From NCBI RefSeq assembly GCF_007671685.1, contig NZ_VCNL01000003.1:222131-286130 (forward strand): a stretch of DNA of 64,000 nt, given 5' to 3'. Position numbers and translations under genes: made by a program. The stretch is from Halorubrum salsamenti (GTDB taxonomy: Archaea; Halobacteriota; Halobacteria; Halobacteriales; Haloferacaceae). The notes beneath the pieces are model-generated. The model did no database searches, was not told where the DNA came from, and saw only the letters and a list, made by a program, of their open reading frames with translations. Of this stretch, positions 55 through 54,718 are shown piece by piece (within the stretch, counting starts at the first letter, position 1; each line of letters opens with the position of its first letter).

Positions 55-2221
55 CATCCTCAACCTGCTCGACGAGGATGGCGTCGACTTCTTCGACGTT
101 GGTGCTGCCGACGCGGAAGCGGAGCGTCCCTTCGTTGTCGACTTCACCCTCGGTCGTGTCGAGAGTCGCGTTGAACGTGCCGTCCTCGGAGATCTCCGCG
201 TCGTCATCCGTCAGGATGAACTGCGGAGAGACGCCCGAAGCCGAGCGCAGGCGGACGCTGATCTCCGAGCCCGGAGCGACGTTCGTCGTACCGGTGATCG
301 AGGATTCCTCGTTCACACCGACTTCGACGAAGTCGTCAGCGTTCTCGTTGTCGAAGGTCGCCGAGCGCTCCTCCATCGTGAAGGTGGCCTCGGCAGACGC
401 TTCGTTACCAGCCGCGTAGTACGGGAACGTGTCGCGCGTACCTGCGGCGTCGTCCCAGTTGGGGGTCACGCCGTCGCCCGTACCGAAGCTGTAGCGGTCG
501 TCCTCGTCGGTCACGTATTCGTACGTGACATCGAAGGAGTCACCGTCCGACACCGAGTCGAACGTGCTGTCGTCGCTCGTGTCGGCGACGACGAAGAACT
601 GACCGTCACCGAAGTAGACGGTCGTCTGGTCGAAGTCGAGCTCGGCCGGGTCCTGGTTCGCAGTCGCCGACGTCGCTTCGACGTTGAAGTTCACGCCCTG
701 GGAGTCGTCATCAACGAGTTCAGTGAGGTAGTCACCTTCGACGCCCTCGTTGAGTTCGTTAAGCGGGACACCGGACCGCTGAGCGATGTCGCCTTCGATA
801 CCGTCGGCTTCGACCTGGATGACCAGACGGTCGTCCAGAGCGATGTCTTCGCTCGCAGTAACGTCTTCGAGCAGCGCGCTGACGTCGTCAGACGCGTCAG
901 TGTCGTCAGACGGAGCCGTGTGCGTCGTGACGCCGTCGATCGTCGGCTCGACGAGGTCGAGCGTCGAGATGTCGAGTTCGTCCTCGACGACGAGGTCACC
1001 GTCGCTGTTGACGGTGTACGCGCCGTTACCGCTCGCGATCAGGTCGTACTCGCCAGCCTGAGCCGGCCGCACCAGCTCACTCTGGTCGAGTCCGCTCTCA
1101 TTCGTACGGAAGTCTTCAGCGGTGGTATCACCAGCAGTGATGGAGTCGCCATCTTCATCGGTGAAGGTGGCGCCCTCGTTTGCCGCATCTGTCTTGACGA
1201 TATCATCTGCCGACTGGTAGGCGTTGCTCGAGTTGTTCGTGCCGAGCGTACGCGTGTTAACCTGGAAGGTCACTTCGTCGTCGTCGTCGTCGTCCTCAAC
1301 GTAGACGACGTCGAAGAAGCCGACGTCCTCTCCGCCGATGCTGACGAAGGTGCTGTCGGAGTCCTCGAGTTCGACACTCATGTTCACGACGTCACCGGCC
1401 GCGTCGGTGACGACGGAGTCAGAGAAGCTCGCGTCCGTGTCCTCTTCCTCGAGGGTCACCGAGGCAGTGTCGGACGCTTCCGTGTCGTACACTTCAGCCG
1501 TGAACTCGTACTCGCCGGCGTCGATCGAGGTGTTGCTGAAGTTGGCGATCAGCGCGTCGTCACGGTAGCCGCTAACGATGTACTCATCGTCGTCACTCGC
1601 AGCGGATTGGTCGATAGTGTCGTCACTCGGGTTGTTTGTGCTGTTACCGAACAGTGCTTCGAGTTCCTCGTAGTCGAGGCCGTCAGCACTGATGTTCATA
1701 GCGTAGTTGTTCCGGCGAGAGTCAACGTTGAGCTCGGCCGACTCCTCACCGGTGTCGTAGCTTGCCTCTTCCCAATCGATGCTGATATCTTGAACAGTCA
1801 GCTCGAAGGTATTGTCTCGAACCTCATCGAGCTGCCCGTCCTTGCCGTTAGGCCCACGCAGGAAGTACTCGCCAGATTCGAGATTTTCGGTATCAATCGA
1901 GACATTATTGCCTTCTGCATCGTACTCTGCCTCGAATGTACTCTCAGTGATGTTATCTCCGTCGTACTCATCTACCGTTCTGAGCACGTAGGTCTCGCCA
2001 TCAGTGATACCATCACCTGTCGCATTAACATCCTGTCCCTGATAGACGATACTCGGATTTGTGTTGTCGCCGACTTCGAAGTCGACGTTATCATTCCCTG
2101 TTGCGGCTGCAGCAGAACCGGCGAAGCCGGCAAAGCCGACAGCAGTCATGGAAAGGACCATGATTACGCTGAAGAAGACCGCACCGGCCTTCTTGCGTGT
2201 TGTATTATTGTCGTTTGTCAT
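1..2221 (-). CDS. S-layer glycoprotein paralogue 1 (3' end outside window)
   Basis: Cell-surface glycoprotein of the haloarchaeal S-layer; 740 residues are visible and the C-terminus lies beyond position 1. The start ATG at 2221 opens a signal peptide beginning MTNDNNTTRKKAG and ending in an Ala-rich cleavage region, almost identical to that of the complete paralogue at 3250-5826. Similarity runs through the whole visible part, including shared stretches such as FVSIGGEDVGFFDVV and DDALIANFSNT. Many N-x-S/T sequons and strong acidity fit a glycosylated halophilic surface protein. The last visible residues are six perfect DET repeats, like the Thr/acidic spacer that precedes the membrane anchor in S-layer proteins. 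A PGF-CTERM anchor is expected but not visible. Promoter at about 2385-2398. Confidence 0.9.
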   Translation of the reverse strand, partial: MTNDNNTTRKKAGAVFFSVIMVLSMTAVGFAGFAGSAAAATGNDNVDFEVGDNTNPSIVYQGQDVNATGDGITDGETYVLRTVDEYDGDNITESTFEAEYDAEGNNVSIDTENLESGEYFLRGPNGKDGQLDEVRDNTFELTVQDISIDWEEASYDTGEESAELNVDSRRNNYAMNISADGLDYEELEALFGNSTNNPSDDTIDQSAASDDDEYIVSGYRDDALIANFSNTSIDAGEYEFTAEVYDTEASDTASVTLEEEDTDASFSDSVVTDAAGDVVNMSVELEDSDSTFVSIGGEDVGFFDVVYVEDDDDDDEVTFQVNTRTLGTNNSSNAYQSADDIVKTDAANEGATFTDEDGDSITAGDTTAEDFRTNESGLDQSELVRPAQAGEYDLIASGNGAYTVNSDGDLVVEDELDISTLDLVEPTIDGVTTHTAPSDDTDASDDVSALLEDVTASEDIALDDRLVIQVEADGIEGDIAQRSGVPLNELNEGVEGDYLTELVDDDSQGVNFNVEATSATANQDPAELDFDQTTVYFGDGQFFVVADTSDDSTFDSVSDGDSFDVTYEYVTDEDDRYSFGTGDGVTPNWDDAAGTRDTFPYYAAGNEASAEATFTMEERSATFDNENADDFVEVGVNEESSITGTTNVAPGSEISVRLRSASGVSPQFILTDDDAEISEDGTFNATLDTTEGEVDNEGTLRFRVGSTNVEEVDAILVEQVEDETDETDETDETDETDETD

Positions 2222-2384
2222 TTGTGTTGTGTGTTGTCTGCATCGCGTTGGCAGCTTTCTCGTTGACCGTGGTCCCCCGTTCCGCATCGCACCGACAACC
2301 TCGTCGAGGTCGCAACCAAACCCGGTCTCGGATAGTTACTCCCAGGCTTATGGGGTACTCCACGTCTAACACATGGCGGTCCTG

Positions 2385-2398
2385 ATAAATACTTTGTG
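2385..2398 (-). promoter_or_regulatory. TATA region of S-layer paralogue 1
   Basis: On the minus strand this reads CACAAAGTATTTAT, matching CACAAAGCATTTAT in front of the second S-layer gene. It lies about 165 bp before the ATG at 2221. Transcription is therefore predicted to start near 2361 and to give a leader of roughly 140 nt, unusual in a window where most genes appear leaderless. A long leader is known for highly expressed haloarchaeal S-layer genes. Confidence 0.6.
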
Positions 2399-3249
2399 TC
2401 TATGTTTCTGTGTGTTATTCCATACCAAATACCGCTACAGCCCGTCATACGCCTATTTAGGCTGAAATAATCCAAAACGTGTTATTCAGAGATGTTTTTC
2501 GACCGTCATGAGATCTGATGCACTAATCGCAACGGTTATTAACATCAGTATAACTGGACTAAATGGTCCCCAAAAGGGCGGCGAACGTGTTCTCTTTGGG
2601 TAGGGAATCTCGTTTCGCGTCCCCATCGTTTTTCACTGTGAGCGGTCCGCTGATCGAGGGCGATACGACGCGTCGCGTGTCGGATGCCCCCACTGAAGCC
2701 GTGTGCTTCCTCCGGACGTCGCTGTCGGATACCTCCCACGGCTGAAGCCGTTGGCTTCCTCCTTGTCCCGCTGTATGTGTGACGGCGCCCGTCGTGCCCG
2801 AGCTGCTCGGCACCACGTCCGCACCACGCCGAACACGTCCGACCTCGAGCGCGGGCTCCACTCCGCGAGATCGCGAACGAGACGCACGACGGCAGAGTGA
2901 GACGGGAGAATCCGACGGAGCCGAGCGCAAGCGGGCGTGGGAGCCCCACCGCAACGAGAGAGGCGACTCGGTGGAAGTGGATACCTCGAAACGAATCGGA
3001 GGGACAACGGCCGACGACAGCGTCGTCGAAACCGTCGTATCGGTGCCGCATGAGGGTCGGCGGGCCGACGTACTGTCCCTACCGCTCTCACCCGATCACG
3101 GAGGGCGTGCGAGTGGCGACTGACCGTCACGCGGACACAGGGCCACCGACGAGAGGCCCGAGCGCTGTCGCTGGACGCGTAGTCCGATAAAGAAATACCG
3201 CGAGGGAGTCGGCCCGCGAGGGCCGGTAGTTGCGAGTGTCGCTGCTGCG
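2399..3249. other. intergenic region between the two S-layer genes
   Basis: About 850 bp with no convincing gene. The part up to 2560 is AT-rich (upstream region of paralogue 1). From about 2570 on it is GC-rich; open frames occur on both strands, but all give Arg-rich, low-acid peptides unlike haloarchaeal proteins. It holds the duplicated hairpin at 2679-2762. It could be remains of a mobile element, but no transposase residues were recognised. Confidence 0.6.
2679..2762. repeat. duplicated hairpin, possible IS200/IS605-type end remnant
   Basis: Two direct copies, about 2679-2712 and 2725-2762, share gtcggat..cc..c followed by ctgaagccgt..gcttcctcc. The second copy folds as cacggct-ga-agccgttg. 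Hairpins of the form CCCACGGCTGAAGCCGTGGG followed by CTTCCTCC are common at ends of haloarchaeal IS1341/TnpB-type elements (recalled family knowledge). No tnpA or tnpB frame is nearby, so this is at most a relic. Confidence 0.45.
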
Positions 3250-5826
3250 TTACTCGTTCCGCCGCGTCGCGAGGAGCGCAGCCGCGATGAGGGCGACGAG
3301 CGCCACGATGGCACCGAAGCCGGGCGTCCCGTCGTCGGTTTCACCGTCTCCGCCGTCCTCACCGTCGGTCTCGTTGCCGTCCGTACCGTCTTCACCGTCT
3401 TCGCCGTCCTCGCCGTCTTCCGCTGCCTCGATGGTCAGCGTGCCGGTCTGCTCGTCGTCGTCGGTGGCAACGCCGTGCGTGTAGTCACCGGCGTCGAGTC
3501 CGGACGTGTCCGCGGTGAACTCGACCGTGGTGCTGTTACCGGCACCGAGTGTGACGTCCTGACTGTCGAGCTCGTCGCCGTCAAGCGTGAGCGCGACACT
3601 CTGGGTGCCTTCGCCGTTACCGGTGTTCTCGATCGTCGCCGACACGTCGACCGAGTCACCGGCGGTGGCGGTCGCCTCTTCGGGGCTCAGGTCCGAGACC
3701 TCGAAGGTCGCGGTTTCCTCGACACCCTCAACGAGGATGGCGTCCATTTCTTCGACGTTGGAGCTGCCGACGCGGAAGCGGATCGTTCCCTCGTCGTCGA
3801 CTTCACCCTCGGTCGTGTCGAGGCTCGCGTTGAACGTGCCGTCCTCGGCGATCTCCGCGTCGTCGTCCGTCAGGATGAATCCGGGGGAGACGTCAGACGC
3901 CGAGCGCAGGCGGACGCTCACGTCCGAGCCCGGGGCGACGTTCGTCGTGCCCGAGATGGACGCTTCTTCCCCGACGGGGACCTCGATCTGGTCGTCAGCG
4001 TTCTCGTTGTCGAAGGACGCCGAGCGCTCCTCCAGCGTGAAGGTAGCCTCCGCGGACGCGCTCGTCTCGGGCGCGAAGTACGGGAACGCGTCCTCGATCT
4101 CGCCGTCGTTGTAGTCGCCGCCGGCGGTAGCGAAGCTGTAGCGTTCGTCCTCGTCGGTCTCGTACTCGTAGGTGACTTCGAAGTCGTCACCGTCGGAGAC
4201 GGAGCCGTCGAACGTGTCGTCGTTGCTCGTGTCGGCGACCACGAAGAACTGACCGTCAGCGAAGTAGACGGTCGTCTCCGAGAAGTCGAGGTCGGCCGGG
4301 TCCTGGTTCGCAGTCGCCGACGTGGACTCGACCTCGAAGGTCACGCCTTCTTCATCGTTCTCGACGAGGTCGGTGAGGCCACTGCCGTCAACGCCCTCGT
4401 TGAGGTCGTTGAGGTTCGCACTGGTGGACTGCGCGACGAAGCCCTCGACACCGTCGGCTTCGACCTGGATGACCATGCGGTCGTCCAAGGCGATGTTCTC
4501 GCTCGCGGTGACATCCTCGAGGAGTTCCTCGACGTTGTCGGCTTCGTCAGTGTTGTCAGCCGGAGCCGTGTGGATCGTCACGCCGTCGATCGTCGGCTCG
4601 GTGAGGTCGAGCGTCGCGATGTCCTGCTCGTCGTCAACGGTGAGGTCTCCGTCTTCGTCGACGGCGAACACACCGTCACCGCTCGCGATCAGGTCGTATT
4701 CACCGGGCTGGGCCGGGCGAACCAGTTCGTCGTGCTCGAGTTGGTTCATCCGGAAGTCGGTAAGGTTATCGACCGGGTCACCGTCCTCGTCCTCGTACGA
4801 GGCGTCGGACGGGTTCCGGTCGACGATGTCGTCGTCCGACTGGTAGGCGTCACCGGACTGGTTGGTGCCGAGGACGCGCGTGTTGACCTGGAAGGTCACT
4901 TCGTCGTCGTCGTCGTCGTCTTCCACTTCGACGACGTCGAAGAAGCCGACGTCCTCGCCGCCGATGCTGACGAAGGTGCTGTCGGAGTCTTCGAGTTCGA
5001 CCGACACGTTGACGACATCACCGGCCGCAGCGGTGGTGATCGACTCGCCGAAGCTGGCCTCGATGTCTTCCTCTTCGAGCGTTACCGATGCGGTGTCTTC
5101 GGCTTCCGTGTCCGTCACTTCGGCCGTGAACTCGTACTCACCGGGATCGATGTCGGTGTTGCTGAAGTTGGCGATCAGCGCGTCGTCACGGAAGCCGCGA
5201 ACGATGATCTCGTCGTCATCTTCCGCGGCGTCCTGCGCGATGTCACCGACCGGATCGTTATCGGTGTCCGTTTCGAACAGCGCCTCAAGCTCGTCGTAGT
5301 CGAGGCCGTCAGCACTGACGTTCATGTTGTAGCTGTTCCGGCGGGACTCGACGTTGAGCTCGGCTTCCTCTTCGCCGGTGTCGTAGGTCGCCTCTTCCCA
5401 ATCGATGCTGATATCCTGAACACTCAGCTCGAAGGTGTTATCTCGAGTCTCGTCCAGTTCAGGCCCGCGGAGGTAGTAGTCGTTGGCCTCGAGACCACTC
5501 GTGTCGATCGTGAGGTTTCCATCACTATCCGTTTCGTACTCCGCCTCGAACGTACTTTCCGTGATGTCGTCACCGTCGAATTCATCTACCGACCGGAGCA
5601 CGTAGTTCGTGTCGTCGTTCAGCCCCGTGGCGGTAACGTCCTGTCCTTCATACACGATACCCGGATCCGTCTCTCCGTCGACGACAAAGTCGACGTCAGT
5701 GGGGTCGTTTCCTGGTGTTTGGGCGGCGGCAGCGCCGGCAAAGCCGACAGCAGCCATGGAAACAACCATAATCACGCTGAAGAAGACCGCACCGGCCTTC
5801 TTGCGTGTAGTATTGTCGTTTGTCAT
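3250..5826 (-). CDS. csg: S-layer glycoprotein with PGF-CTERM anchor
   Basis: Complete 858-residue major cell-surface glycoprotein. The ATG at 5826 (MTNDNTTRKKAG) was chosen over an upstream in-frame start because it opens a typical secretion signal ending GAAAAQ and matches the neighbouring paralogue. The mature part is a highly acidic beta-rich ectodomain with N-glycosylation sequons, followed by a low-complexity EDGEDG/TDGNETDG spacer at about residues 800-830. The extreme C-terminus reads TPGFGAIVALVALIAAALLATRRNE in two parts: the PGF motif, a hydrophobic helix, and an Arg-rich end. That is the PGF-CTERM signal processed by archaeosortase ArtA and lipid-anchored in known haloarchaea. Transcribed in the same direction as paralogue 1 and about 1 kb upstream of it, each with its own promoter. 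Confidence 0.95.
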   Translation of the reverse strand: MTNDNTTRKKAGAVFFSVIMVVSMAAVGFAGAAAAQTPGNDPTDVDFVVDGETDPGIVYEGQDVTATGLNDDTNYVLRSVDEFDGDDITESTFEAEYETDSDGNLTIDTSGLEANDYYLRGPELDETRDNTFELSVQDISIDWEEATYDTGEEEAELNVESRRNSYNMNVSADGLDYDELEALFETDTDNDPVGDIAQDAAEDDDEIIVRGFRDDALIANFSNTDIDPGEYEFTAEVTDTEAEDTASVTLEEEDIEASFGESITTAAAGDVVNVSVELEDSDSTFVSIGGEDVGFFDVVEVEDDDDDDEVTFQVNTRVLGTNQSGDAYQSDDDIVDRNPSDASYEDEDGDPVDNLTDFRMNQLEHDELVRPAQPGEYDLIASGDGVFAVDEDGDLTVDDEQDIATLDLTEPTIDGVTIHTAPADNTDEADNVEELLEDVTASENIALDDRMVIQVEADGVEGFVAQSTSANLNDLNEGVDGSGLTDLVENDEEGVTFEVESTSATANQDPADLDFSETTVYFADGQFFVVADTSNDDTFDGSVSDGDDFEVTYEYETDEDERYSFATAGGDYNDGEIEDAFPYFAPETSASAEATFTLEERSASFDNENADDQIEVPVGEEASISGTTNVAPGSDVSVRLRSASDVSPGFILTDDDAEIAEDGTFNASLDTTEGEVDDEGTIRFRVGSSNVEEMDAILVEGVEETATFEVSDLSPEEATATAGDSVDVSATIENTGNGEGTQSVALTLDGDELDSQDVTLGAGNSTTVEFTADTSGLDAGDYTHGVATDDDEQTGTLTIEAAEDGEDGEDGEDGTDGNETDGEDGGDGETDDGTPGFGAIVALVALIAAALLATRRNE

Positions 5827-5994
5827 TGTTTGTAGTTGTGTTCTGTGTCGACCACAGCAGCTTTCCCGTCGTCTTCGAGGGACGCCCGCTCGTCGTCGCC
5901 AACGTGGTCGTGGAGGTGCGGCCGGACTCGACTCTCGGTACTCAGTACTGCAGCCATTTGGGTAGGGGTCGCAATCAGAGAATGAACTATCAGC

Positions 5995-9242: not shown

Positions 9243-9675
9243 AGGATAAGCCGCGCCGAGAGCCTGTTTTCGGATCGGGCTTGATGGGCGACGGAGCCGA
9301 CAGACCGCGACGATCGCTTATAAACGAACCGTGCGGTGGCGCGTGCCTTCGAGTGGCCGATAGGCCACGAGGAGCACGCGCGAGGGAATCGCTGGCGCCG
9401 TCGGCGCCAGCGACAGGGCGAGAGCGGAGCTCTCGCTTGCAACCGGACGCAGTCCGGTGACGAGGCTGGGGAGGCGTGAGGGGCGGGGCGGTGCTGTGCG
9501 GGGGGAGACTCAACGGGGCAGTCGCCGGCGGCTGTGCCGCCGGCTGCAAGCGAGCGCTTCGCCCTCGCGGCTGGGGCGTTGGAGGCGTTCACCGCCGATC
9601 CGCGATCAATCACTTATAAGCAACTAACCGAACCGCGAAACCGTCCGCTCTCAAGCCACAAATCGCACCCGTCTC
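9243..9675 (+). repeat. dispersed hairpin element, copy A (most complete)
   Basis: Non-coding 433 bp between convergent genes. Left end: gatcgcttataaacg (9313-9326). Block 2: gtggcgcgtgccttcgag (9336-9353). Block 3: gcacgcgcgagggaatcg (9374-9391). Block 4: tgacgaggctggggaggc (9459-9476), then gcggtgctgtgcgg and gagactcaacggggc (to 9519). Block 5: ggctggggcgttggagg (9569-9585), then ttcaccgc and cacttataag (9611-9620). Between the blocks lie strong hairpins: 9353-9368, 9390-9412, 9418-9436, 9443-9457 and 9524-9544. The same blocks occur near 29.3, 45.8 and 53.7 kb. No open frame is credible. Confidence 0.85.
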
Positions 9676-29165: not shown

Positions 29166-29427
29166 GTAGTGTGACGAACGGGTAGACCGGTGAATTTCGG
29201 TGTTCGTTTATAAATGGTTGATGCTGGTAGATCGGCGACGAGGACCTCCAAAGCCCCAGCCGTGAGGACGAAGCACGGCTGGGGCTTTGAGTCCCACCCC
29301 TCACAGCACCGCCGGAAGACGTTCCTGCTCGCTTCGCTGCGCGGGCTGCGACTTCCGTGCTCCCGCTCGCTCCCGTCGGTCGCTCGGCGGCACGCGCCGA
29401 CCGCAACAGCGACCGCAGCGAAACGGA
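29166..29427 (-). repeat. dispersed hairpin element, copy D
   Basis: 262 bp non-coding between convergent PiT and YgfZ-like genes, reading in the YgfZ direction. On the minus strand: block 2 tgcggtcggcgcgtgccgcc (complement of 29385-29404), a variable part, gcggtgctgtgaggggtg, gggactcaaa, then a near-perfect 15-bp stem (plus strand 29250-29264 and 29274-29288; aaagccccagccgtg / cacggctggggcttt) and a tail ending tttataaacg (29205-29214). The left half is less conserved than in copy A and begins directly at the upstream stop codon. Confidence 0.75.
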
Positions 29428-52490: not shown

Positions 52491-53561
52491 ATGACCGACG
52501 ACATTGTCGAACACCGTCGACTGATCATCGCCGGCACCGGGATCGCGGGGCTCTCCGCGGGAATTTACGCCGCGCGCTCGAACAACGATCCCCTGCTCAT
52601 CGAGGGCGACGAGCCGGGCGGCCAGCTCACGCTCACCACCGACGTGGAGAACTATCCCGGCTTCCCCGAGGGGATCTCCGGGCCGGAGCTGATCAACGAC
52701 ATGAAAGCGCAGGCGACGAAGTTCGGCGCCGAGACCCGCAACGGGGTCATCGAGGACGTCTCCAAAGAGCCCGCGGGCCACTTCCGCGTCGAGCTCTCCG
52801 ACGGCGACGTGTACACCGCCGACGGCTTCATCGCCGCCTCTGGCGCCAGCGCCCGCACGCTCGGCGTCCCGGGCGAGGACGAGCTGATGGGGTACGGGCT
52901 CTCGACGTGCGCGACCTGCGACGGCGCGTTCTTCCGCGGCGAGGACATGCTCGTCGTCGGCGGCGGCGACGCCGCGATGGAAGAGGCGAACTTCCTGACG
53001 AAGTTCGCGGACACCGTCTACATCGCCCACCGCCGCGAGGAGTTCCGCGCCGAGGACGTGTGGATCGAGCGCACGATGGAGAAGGTGGAGGACGGCGAGA
53101 TCGAGCTCCTCCTCAACACCGAGCTCACCGAGATCCACGGCACCCCCGAGGACGGGATCGACCACGTCAGTCTGGTCGAACACCCGGACGGGCACCCGAA
53201 GGAGAAGCTCGATGACCCGGCGACCGCCGACGAGGTCGACGAGTACGACTTCGACGTGGGCGCCGTCTTCTTCGCCATCGGCCACACGCCGAACACGGAC
53301 TTCCTCGAGGGGACCGGGATCGAGACCGACGACGACGGCTACCTCATCACCGAGGGCGGCCGCGGCGGGAACCAGACCGCGACCGGCGTCGAGGGGCTGT
53401 TCGGCGCCGGCGACGTGGTCGACTTCCACTACCAGCAGGCGGCCACGGCCAGCGGGATGGGCGTGAAGGCCGCGCTCGACGTCGACGAGTACCTCACCGA
53501 GCGCGAGCGCGCCGGCGAGCTGTACGAGCCCGAAGTCGACGCGGCGGCCGCGGACGACTGA
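52491..53561 (+). CDS. trxB: thioredoxin reductase (NAD(P)H-dependent disulfide reductase)
   Basis: 356 residues. FAD motif LIIAGTGIAGLSAGIYAARS, redox site CATC at Cys140 and Cys143, NAD(P)H motif MLVVGGGDAAMEEANFL and FAD-contact GLFGAGDVVDFHYQQ. Two-domain low-molecular-weight type. The NADPH-binding basic residues (HRREEF) support NADPH use. A tacata-like TATA near 52461 sits 27 bp before ATG 52491, so leaderless. Supplies electrons to thioredoxins and possibly glutaredoxin. Confidence 0.93.
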   Translation: MTDDIVEHRRLIIAGTGIAGLSAGIYAARSNNDPLLIEGDEPGGQLTLTTDVENYPGFPEGISGPELINDMKAQATKFGAETRNGVIEDVSKEPAGHFRVELSDGDVYTADGFIAASGASARTLGVPGEDELMGYGLSTCATCDGAFFRGEDMLVVGGGDAAMEEANFLTKFADTVYIAHRREEFRAEDVWIERTMEKVEDGEIELLLNTELTEIHGTPEDGIDHVSLVEHPDGHPKEKLDDPATADEVDEYDFDVGAVFFAIGHTPNTDFLEGTGIETDDDGYLITEGGRGGNQTATGVEGLFGAGDVVDFHYQQAATASGMGVKAALDVDEYLTERERAGELYEPEVDAAAADD

Positions 53562-54125
53562 GCGGCGACCGAACGACGAGCGTCTTTTTAAGTAACCGCG
53601 CCGCGGCGGAGCCGCCGAGCGACGGCGATATCGACTGTTTATAAAGCGATCTGCCGTCGGCGCGCGCCTCCGAGCGGTCGCCACTGGCGACCGCGAGTAG
53701 TGAGGGACCGAAGGTCCCTCTGACAGCCGGCGGCGAAGCCGCCGGCGAGAGCGCGTGCGAGGGAGTCAGTCGTCCGGAGCGAAGCGGAGGACGGCTGACG
53801 AGGTTGGGGAGGTGTGAGGTGCGGTTGCTGTGCGGTGCGGGGTGGGACTCAAAGGGGCGGCCGGCGAGGCGGGCGCAGGTGACGTAAGCACTGCAGGGAG
53901 CGAGCAGCACGAGCGACCGAAGCGCGCAGCGAGCGTGCGTCCGCCTCGCCGGCTGGGGCTTTGACGGTGTTCCCTGTCGATCTGTCGTCAGGTACTTATA
54001 AGCGAGCGGCTGGGCTTTGGAAGTGTTCACCACGGGATCGCCGCGATCGTTGTAAGCAGCAACGAGGACGGTGCAAACGTTAATCGACGATCTGCGAACG
54101 GCTATTTATAAGCGGTCGACGACTC
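53562..54125 (+). repeat. dispersed hairpin element, copy C (compound)
   Basis: 564 bp between convergent trxB and the PPOX gene. Left end tcgactgtttataaagcg (53631-53648), block 2 gccgtcggcgcgcgcctcc (53653-53671), hairpins 53674-53694, 53704-53718 and 53726-53746, block 3 gcgtgcgagggagtcag (53753-53768), stem 53765-53798, block 4 tgacgaggttggggaggtg (53796-53814) and gggactcaaaggggc (53844-53858), long stem gccggcgaggcgg/ccgcctcgccggc (53860-53872/53940-53952), block 5 ggctggggctttg (53951-53963), right end acttataagcg. A second partial tail follows at 54008-54060 (ggctgggctttgg to gttgtaagcag) and a third tttataagcg at 54104-54113. Confidence 0.85.
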
Positions 54126-54593
54126 CTACTCATCGTCGCGGTCGACGACGACCGTACGGCCGGTGAGCCGCTCGGGCTCGAACCGGTACAGCTCGATGTC
54201 GAGGTCTTTCTTCCCGTCGGCCCAGATCTCGAACAGGGGCCGTTGCGTCTTGCCGTACTGCGCGATCGTCTCGGGCGTGAGGTCGTCGAGATCGACCCGA
54301 TGGAGGGCGCCGACGCCGACGACGCTCGCGTACTCCTCGCGGCTCCCCTCGCCGCCCTCCTCGTACACCACGATCCGGGCCTGCGGGTCGGACGCGAGGA
54401 ACTCTCGCTTCTCGCTGTCGGGCGTCGACACGAGCCGGAGGAAGGCGGTCCGCGACTCCTCGTCGAATCCGTACGAGATCGGGATCGCGTACGGGGTCTC
54501 GTCGCGCGCGAGGGACAGCACCCCGGTCTCGTGCCGGGACAGGAGCGCGTCGACCTCCGCGTCGGACATCTCGACCTCGCTTCTCGTCGCCAT
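54126..54593 (-). CDS. pyridoxamine 5'-phosphate oxidase-family flavoprotein
   Basis: 155 residues with the split-barrel fold: VDALLSRHETGVLSLARDETPYAIPISYGFDEESRTAFLRLV in two parts is the PPOX/HugZ-like FMN-binding start, followed by EEYASVVGVGALHRVDLDDL. Such proteins bind FMN, heme or F420. ATG 54593 (MATRSEVEMSDAEVD) was chosen. No pdxH-specific residues were identified, so vitamin B6 synthesis is not implied. Confidence 0.82.
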   Translation of the reverse strand: MATRSEVEMSDAEVDALLSRHETGVLSLARDETPYAIPISYGFDEESRTAFLRLVSTPDSEKREFLASDPQARIVVYEEGGEGSREEYASVVGVGALHRVDLDDLTPETIAQYGKTQRPLFEIWADGKKDLDIELYRFEPERLTGRTVVVDRDDE

Positions 54594-54718
54594 ACGCGAT
54601 CCTCTGGGTACGAGGGGATAAAGGACACGAGACTGAGCGAGGGGGAACCGACGGCTGTCGGTGGCGGAGGCCCGCGACGGGACCCGGGAATTGGGCGGAC
54701 CGAGGGAGACGACAACCG

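Follow-up and report, generated by a model that had tools for sequence, protein, structure and literature searches.

The intergenic region at positions 53951-54118 of the window, by which we mean the whole stretch of 64,000 nucleotides that was analysed, is bordered by trxB and by a - strand ORF with its 3' end close to 54130. The locus represents a single copy of a non-coding element that is dispersed in intergenic DNA and composed of a 5' module, a core hairpin and a TATA-bearing tail, and the tail is here present twice. Taken together, the data make it rather probable that a dispersed element received its double tail by recombination or gene conversion and that its core is selected as one strand. 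By ectopic recombination or gene conversion, another element of this genome would have donated part of the core and one tail; the right breakpoint would fall within the shared GGCTGGG(G)CTTTGG stretch, and the old local tail would have stayed behind as the distal unit, as the mosaic of similarities described below suggests. The element would act like an enlarged intergenic repeat of the REP/BIME type, spread and homogenised. The hairpin repeat family is widespread and apparently undescribed so far, and the tandem tails provide a within-genome record of repeat growth and recombination.

A dispersed element with two tails

The upstream gene, a thioredoxin-reductase-like ORF on the + strand ending at 53561, was assigned to trxB by reading its sequence alone. 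Downstream of it, the preliminary description had reported right ends in tandem, which the letters confirm: ggctggggctttg at 53951 and tacttataagcg at 53993-54004 are followed by ggctgggctttgg from 54008 and ttgtaagc at 54050-54057, forming two tail units whose starts are 57 bp apart (Table 1). These units are 65% identical over 57 nt, their likeness residing mainly in the first ~26 nt, and Tandem Repeats Finder returned 0 rows for the pair in the window, the units being too diverged. The occurrence of GGCTGGGGCTTTG is beyond chance, with 6 sites found per window at two mismatches or fewer against 0.68 expected; at one mismatch or fewer, the whole genome holds 124 sites against 36 for the pattern read backwards. 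At least 8 close pairs of this motif were seen among the matches listed for the own genome. The third tttataagcg of the preliminary description is present, at 54105-54114 rather than 54104, in flanking DNA that aligns with that of the relatives G014 and G017, and it is not a third tail.

Table 1. Features of the element and related stretches in the window. R1 is the covariance model of the core, and its E-values are rough.
Feature	Position	Strand	Basis
Left TATA-like box TTTATAAA	53638..53645	+	sequence; precedes the structured element by ~20 nt
5' module: GGCGCGCGCC, variable hairpins, GACGAGGTTGGGGAGGTGTGAGG	53659..53819	+	sequence, RNA fold
Core hairpin	53841..53976	+	model R1, 135.2 bits, E 2.6e-25 (this copy is among those used to build R1)
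Tail unit 1 (proximal): 3' arm ggctggggctttg, spacer, TTATAAGCGAGC	53951..54007	+	
Tail unit 2 (distal): ggctgggctttgg ... ttgtaagc	54008..54057	+	
TTTATAAGCG in flanking DNA	54105..54114	+	aligns with relatives G014 and G017
Degenerate core copy, most of loop lost	29236..29298	-	R1, 43 bits, E 1.2e-6
Degenerate core copy	9502..9594	+	R1, 48.6 bits, E 9.1e-8

When 53700-54300 was used as query, at least 51 matches were obtained in the own genome, itself included, and 30 loci were fetched and read, yielding 31 copies. The plan of most copies comprises a TATA-like box on the left, a 5' module, the core and a tail with TTATAA, for an element length of ~350-450 bp and a core of 134 nt. The 5' module starts with GGCGCGYGCC, continues with variable hairpins and ends with GAGGYTGGGGAGGYGTGAGG, and the core extends from GGTGGGACTCAAAGGGGC to CTTTGG. 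A left AT-box of some kind is present in 25 of the 31 copies, and TTATAA was found on the left, within 35 nt upstream, in 20 of them and on the right in 25. The core is a long mismatched hairpin, CAAAG-GGG-CAGCC ... GGCTG-GGG-CTTTG, and the 3' module of ~57 bp is made of the 3' arm of this hairpin and the TTATAA-bearing tail; in the window, the first 26 nt of tail unit 1 overlap the core.

Several other arrangements were observed on reading these loci. By eye, a larger unit encloses L002, L003, L005, L019, L022, L023, L026, L027 and L028, whose termini read like GATCGATAGCGGGAGTGGGT and, for the majority of these copies, ACTCCCGCTATCGATC; this unit may be a composite or hitch-hiking MITE. In the core of L022, the hairpin loop has the opposite orientation to that of the other copies, as recombination between the hairpin arms would give. 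In the flanks of L008 and L020, CTGTTGAAATYCTATTCTTCAG or a close form adjoins the element and represents another repeat or an IS end. In the copy at 29236-29298 of the window and in L135 (genome G026), CCC takes the place of the 5'-side GGG of the internal loop, so that the arms pair perfectly. Elsewhere in the window, 57-5850 contains two blocks ~3.6 kb apart, several pieces of which resemble each other at 73-88%; a tandem gene duplication is the probable cause.

Structure, distribution and gene context

RNAalifold was applied to an alignment of 28 of the 31 own copies (A1), from which L015 (loop lost), L022 (loop inverted) and L030 (3' side lost) were dropped. It gave 38 pairs, of which 17 vary on both sides. 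Counted on the alignment, 97.2% of cells are paired and the covariation score is 0.333 against 0.155 (sd 0.008) in shuffled alignments, the pairs having been chosen by the RNA folding program itself; none of 500 shuffles reached as high a score and slid versions did not exceed 0.047. For a second alignment (A2), 49 loci from outside the genus were searched, L158 and L160-L164 being left out as partial or weak matches. The structure is kept in 59 matches, with 94.1% of cells paired, 32 pairs changed on both sides and a covariation score of 0.575 against 0.173 when shuffled (slid versions at most 0.072), in an alignment that was fitted to the model and is biased toward structure and G-U pairs. 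When pairs with G-U as their commonest state are omitted, G-U cells outnumber A-C cells by 29 to 9 in A1 and by 85 to 16 in A2, an excess that points to the + strand. The RNA fold of 53655-53990 has a z of -4.9 on the + strand and of -3.4 on the - strand. These results favour a core hairpin that would be selected on one strand (+), whether in the form of RNA or of single-stranded DNA; similar covariation is expected from either form, and either may apply.

Among the 52 genomes of the genus, R1 matches were found in 50, the own genome included, and two have none; 26 genomes hold at least 60 matches each, out of no more than 64 scored candidates per genome, and nine hold 14 or fewer, the two without any among them. 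In the sample of the class, R1 matches 147 of the 194 genomes, and 55 of the 65 genera sampled are represented, with weaker scores outside the genus (125 of 172 genomes). Among 72,556 plasmid records, four match, in five places. Loci were read from 11 genomes (G037 being the only one from the genus) and from 30 low-copy genomes (two from the genus), and the consensus outside the genus, drawn by eye, is GGTGGGACTGAAAGGGGC ... GGGGCTTTC. Scanning genome contigs for GGTGGGACTSAAAGGGGC recovered at least 117 stretches; among the 80 listed, 79 are haloarchaeal by name and one is named as a Bacteroidales MAG. The occurrences with enough flank, again at least 117, divide into 58 of a CAAAG type and 59 of a GAAAG type, and the 3' motif is present in 53 and 41 of these, respectively. 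The TATA-bearing tail seems to be a trait of the CAAAG type, since TTATAA follows the 3' motif within 60 nt in 21 of those 53 and in none of the 41. The 5' module motif GGYTGGGGA is found within 130 nt upstream of 53/58 CAAAG-type cores versus 10/59 GAAAG-type cores. Outside the genus, 10 of the 49 loci hold a second R1 match, nine of them head to head; the tenth, L112, was called on the same strand, a call in which R1 may have misjudged a near-palindrome. At loci of genome G172 such as L108 and L118, the head-to-head cores are ~250-370 bp apart, start to start, and a stretch resembling the 5' module lies between the paired cores of L108 and L118 (by eye).

The only Rfam match in 53500-54700 has an E-value of 0.54 and scores 20 bits where the gathering threshold is 55, and five loci with relatives gave none at E<=1; neither this part of the window nor these loci belong to a curated structured-RNA family by that comparison. 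The element family was not found in the literature searched, supplements aside, and a literature search by sequence string returned no archaeal paper, judging by titles.

Gene neighbours were called with a home-made codon score and are approximate; by these calls, the element sits between genes. In the Halorubrum sets, divergent pairs account for 5 of the 54 cases with both neighbours called, and co-directional neighbours are sense to the element in 12 cases and antisense in 20. The two remaining sets are mostly from other genera but include five Halorubrum loci; there, 8 of 52 cases are divergent, and co-directional neighbours are sense in 25 cases versus antisense in 5. Neither a constant neighbour nor a master gene was noticed at the 30 low-copy loci when ORF lists were read by eye; L140 and L160 have a neighbour ORF in common, but both are from one genus.

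Origin of the doubled tail

A joined-flank search was run over the 52 genomes; the loci of ten relatives were examined, and in six of them trxB is found together with the downstream ORF. In this group, G037 presents an empty gap of ~50 bp containing CTTATAAA, and the element is present with a single tail in G014, G017, G024, G027 and G036, without most of the core in G017. Empty and single-ended versions of the locus therefore both exist, and the tandem ends are not common to all orthologs. In the single-tail relatives, the genes on either side show 90-95% identity.

The window copy was compared in 40-nt bins with these orthologs and with own paralogs, in one alignment, and appears as a mosaic. 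The G014 ortholog is 85, 82 and 95% identical in bins 53565, 53605 and 53765 and 82% in bin 54085, which covers the right flank; in bin 53645, G024 (90%) is nearer than G014 (82%), whereas nothing compared exceeds 20-40% in bins 53685 and 53725. For the core, identity in bins 53885 and 53925 is 100 and 98% to the paralog L003 versus 72 and 65% to G014, and bin 53965, in the proximal tail, is 80% identical to L006 versus 48-60% to the five orthologs. No ortholog aligns well in bins 54005 and 54045 (2-15%), where the similarity of the distal unit to the single tail of relatives at the trxB locus was judged by eye. The G036 ortholog is 98, 95, 88 and 90% identical in bins 53805 to 53925 (to 53964), so part of the core may have been inherited vertically, which is the strongest argument against conversion. 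A donor with the exact combination of core and tail was not found. With an ortholog-like distal tail beside a paralog-like core and proximal tail, ectopic recombination is the best reading.

Extra tail units are found in other copies as well. One or two of them, at 54-60 bp, were detected in 10 of the 31 own copies when 5 mismatches in 18 were allowed, of which some may be chance, since the same search matched 3/31 stretches when reversed and 1/31 in the next 260 nt. In G037, 7 of 10 copies have extra tails, with up to five units, in a search at 4 mismatches in 14 that was run without control. Neighbouring units in that genome share 93-100% identity at five of the six loci measured and 64% at the sixth, a count that leaves out L343 (93 bp spacing) and the degenerate last units of L105, L116, L127, L346 and L348; L105 carries an array of a 57-bp unit in 4.6 copies. 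Tail units of G037 are 96% identical within loci versus 72% between loci, and the 3' module is prone to local tandem duplication in that genome. The corresponding values in the own genome are 63% versus 65%, so local duplication is not visible there. Duplication of the 3' module, one of two options offered by the preliminary description, is thus recurrent.

The target site was examined by querying 11 own loci, trxB and ten others, the ten against twelve relatives, and nine gave a gap. Gaps were picked by a short distance between flank matches; 31 were fetched and 20 counted, which with trxB in G037 makes 21. The uncounted gaps are occupied or hold remnants of the element, except L205 (L016 in G024), which has neither element nor TTATAA but other sequence instead and was left out of the count. 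TTATAA is present in two of the 21 core-less gaps, trxB in G037 and L014 in G002, and three further G037 gaps contain weaker TATA-like strings. TTATAA as a general insertion target was rejected, being missing from the 19 other unoccupied gaps; the TA-rich target that had been proposed fails as a rule and fits the empty trxB gap of G037. Few gaps but many own copies have TTATAA, so it mostly arrives with the element. Comparing occupied with unoccupied gaps by eye revealed no target-site duplication. The own loci L011, L016 and L030 appear occupied in G037 too (L030 by eye).

A double tail could also have arisen without copying from another element. Slippage in the own lineage, by which the 3' module would have been duplicated locally and then diverged, is exactly what G037 displays at its five near-identical loci and in the L105 array, and yet the window units are only 65% identical although the flanking genes of the single-tail relatives remain at 90-95%, and the proximal unit is nearer to paralogs than to orthologs. 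Local duplication alone is insufficient to explain the tails of the window, and we regard simple slippage as unlikely. The preliminary description had alternatively proposed a nested insertion; a second element would then have entered into or beside the first at a TA-rich target, and one of the two would later have lost a part. The existence of empty and occupied versions of the trxB locus, the CTTATAAA in the G037 gap and the TTATAA on both sides of own copies would agree with such an event; however, only a single 5' module and a single core are present, TTATAA is missing from nearly all unoccupied orthologous gaps, no target-site duplication was seen, and a second unit at 54-60 bp at many loci is hardly expected from independent nesting. 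A nested second element thus appears very improbable.

A broader alternative, to which we give an appreciable but less than even chance, is that the family consists of structured RNA genes or 3'-UTR structures with a host function and that the tail duplications are neutral. The covariation and the G-U excess on one strand, the TATA-like box ~20 nt upstream, the presence in 147 of 194 genomes of the class, the scarcity of divergent gene pairs and the sense excess in the two sets from mostly other genera are all in its favour. However, hairpins in single-stranded DNA would give like covariation, presence and absence differ among relatives, the Halorubrum sets display no sense bias, and no constant neighbour was noticed at the 30 low-copy loci. 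Somewhat more speculatively, the family may be a pan-haloarchaeal multi-copy structured RNA, with a core of ~134 nt and ~350 nt including the 5' module, which would have expanded in Halorubrum, where its own TATA boxes would drive it, and in which copying of the 57-bp arm-plus-tail would alter the 3' end and could offer alternative partners to the single 5' arm. If RNA, the family would be a large uncharacterised archaeal class; if single-stranded DNA, it would point to some mobiliser not yet known. Ectopic recombination between dispersed copies remains the reading that we prefer for the tails.

Comparison with known systems

Conserved, unassigned sRNAs of Halobacteria have been reported from halite (PMC7002113), and, going by the part of that paper covered, a transcript of the element family may be among them. 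The covered part of the table of RepRanger includes no haloarchaeon among its archaea (PMC12306157).

According to the parts of the papers covered, PATEs are the nearest haloarchaeal elements: they are non-coding, palindromic, without target duplication and of high copy number in haloarchaea (PMC3119063), and they were described from Haloquadratum and Halorubrum, with terminal-only forms of 52 bp (PMC3119063, PMC10544981), similar in size to the 57-bp tail unit. The comparison was made with PATEs as described in those parts. PATEs carry near-terminal palindromes akin to those of IS605-type transposons. The present element could be such a PATE, a decayed IS200/IS605 element that a Y1 transposase would mobilise in trans: it is non-coding, rich in hairpins, of high copy number and hosted by a haloarchaeon, it is too short for a transposase at ~350-450 bp, and no target duplication was seen by eye. 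The own genome holds one Y1 and 20 TnpB-type matches, and two of 13 transposase loci carry a copy or remnant of the element, recovered by blastn with E down to 5.7e-22, at ~1.1-1.4 kb from TnpB, namely the 5' end of the element at L068 and a degenerate copy at L069. Against this, R1 had no credible match at these 13 loci (12 of the 20 TnpB and the Y1; best E 0.017), and none was found among 50,697 phage records. A relation of the core to IS605 was not found by R1 at the own-genome transposase loci, and a phage origin was rejected on the phage records. The copies or remnants near two TnpB loci speak somewhat for membership in the PATEs, which nevertheless seems unlikely. No mobiliser of the element was found. 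At 2700-2960 of L069, a hairpin ending CCGCGCCTAAAGGCGCGG ... TTCTCCCTGCTC adjoins CTTTATAACG of the degenerate copy, ~1.1 kb from the TnpB match; presumably it is an IS1341-type end beside the TATA box of the element.

MITEs have the terminal inverted repeats of a known transposon and a target duplication. A likeness to them is seen by eye in own copies such as L002, L003, L005, L026 and L027, which lie inside the larger unit with the long inverted ends GATCGATAGCGGGAGTGGGT ... ACTCCCGCTATCGATC, whereas other own copies do not have such ends and no target duplication was seen.

The REP, BIME and REPIN repeats of bacteria are associated with RAYT, a solo Y1, and with a GTAG-type tag. RAYT was not found in the own genome, where the only PF01797 match is followed, ~0.9 kb downstream and in the same orientation, by a PF07282 match. 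The present element is far longer than these repeats, with a 134-nt core and ~350 nt for the whole. In arrangement, REP/BIME repeats are nonetheless the nearest known system: both are dispersed intergenic palindromes with tens of copies per genome and few between divergent genes, and the head-to-head pairs of nine of the 49 non-Halorubrum loci may recall the alternating orientation of REP units.
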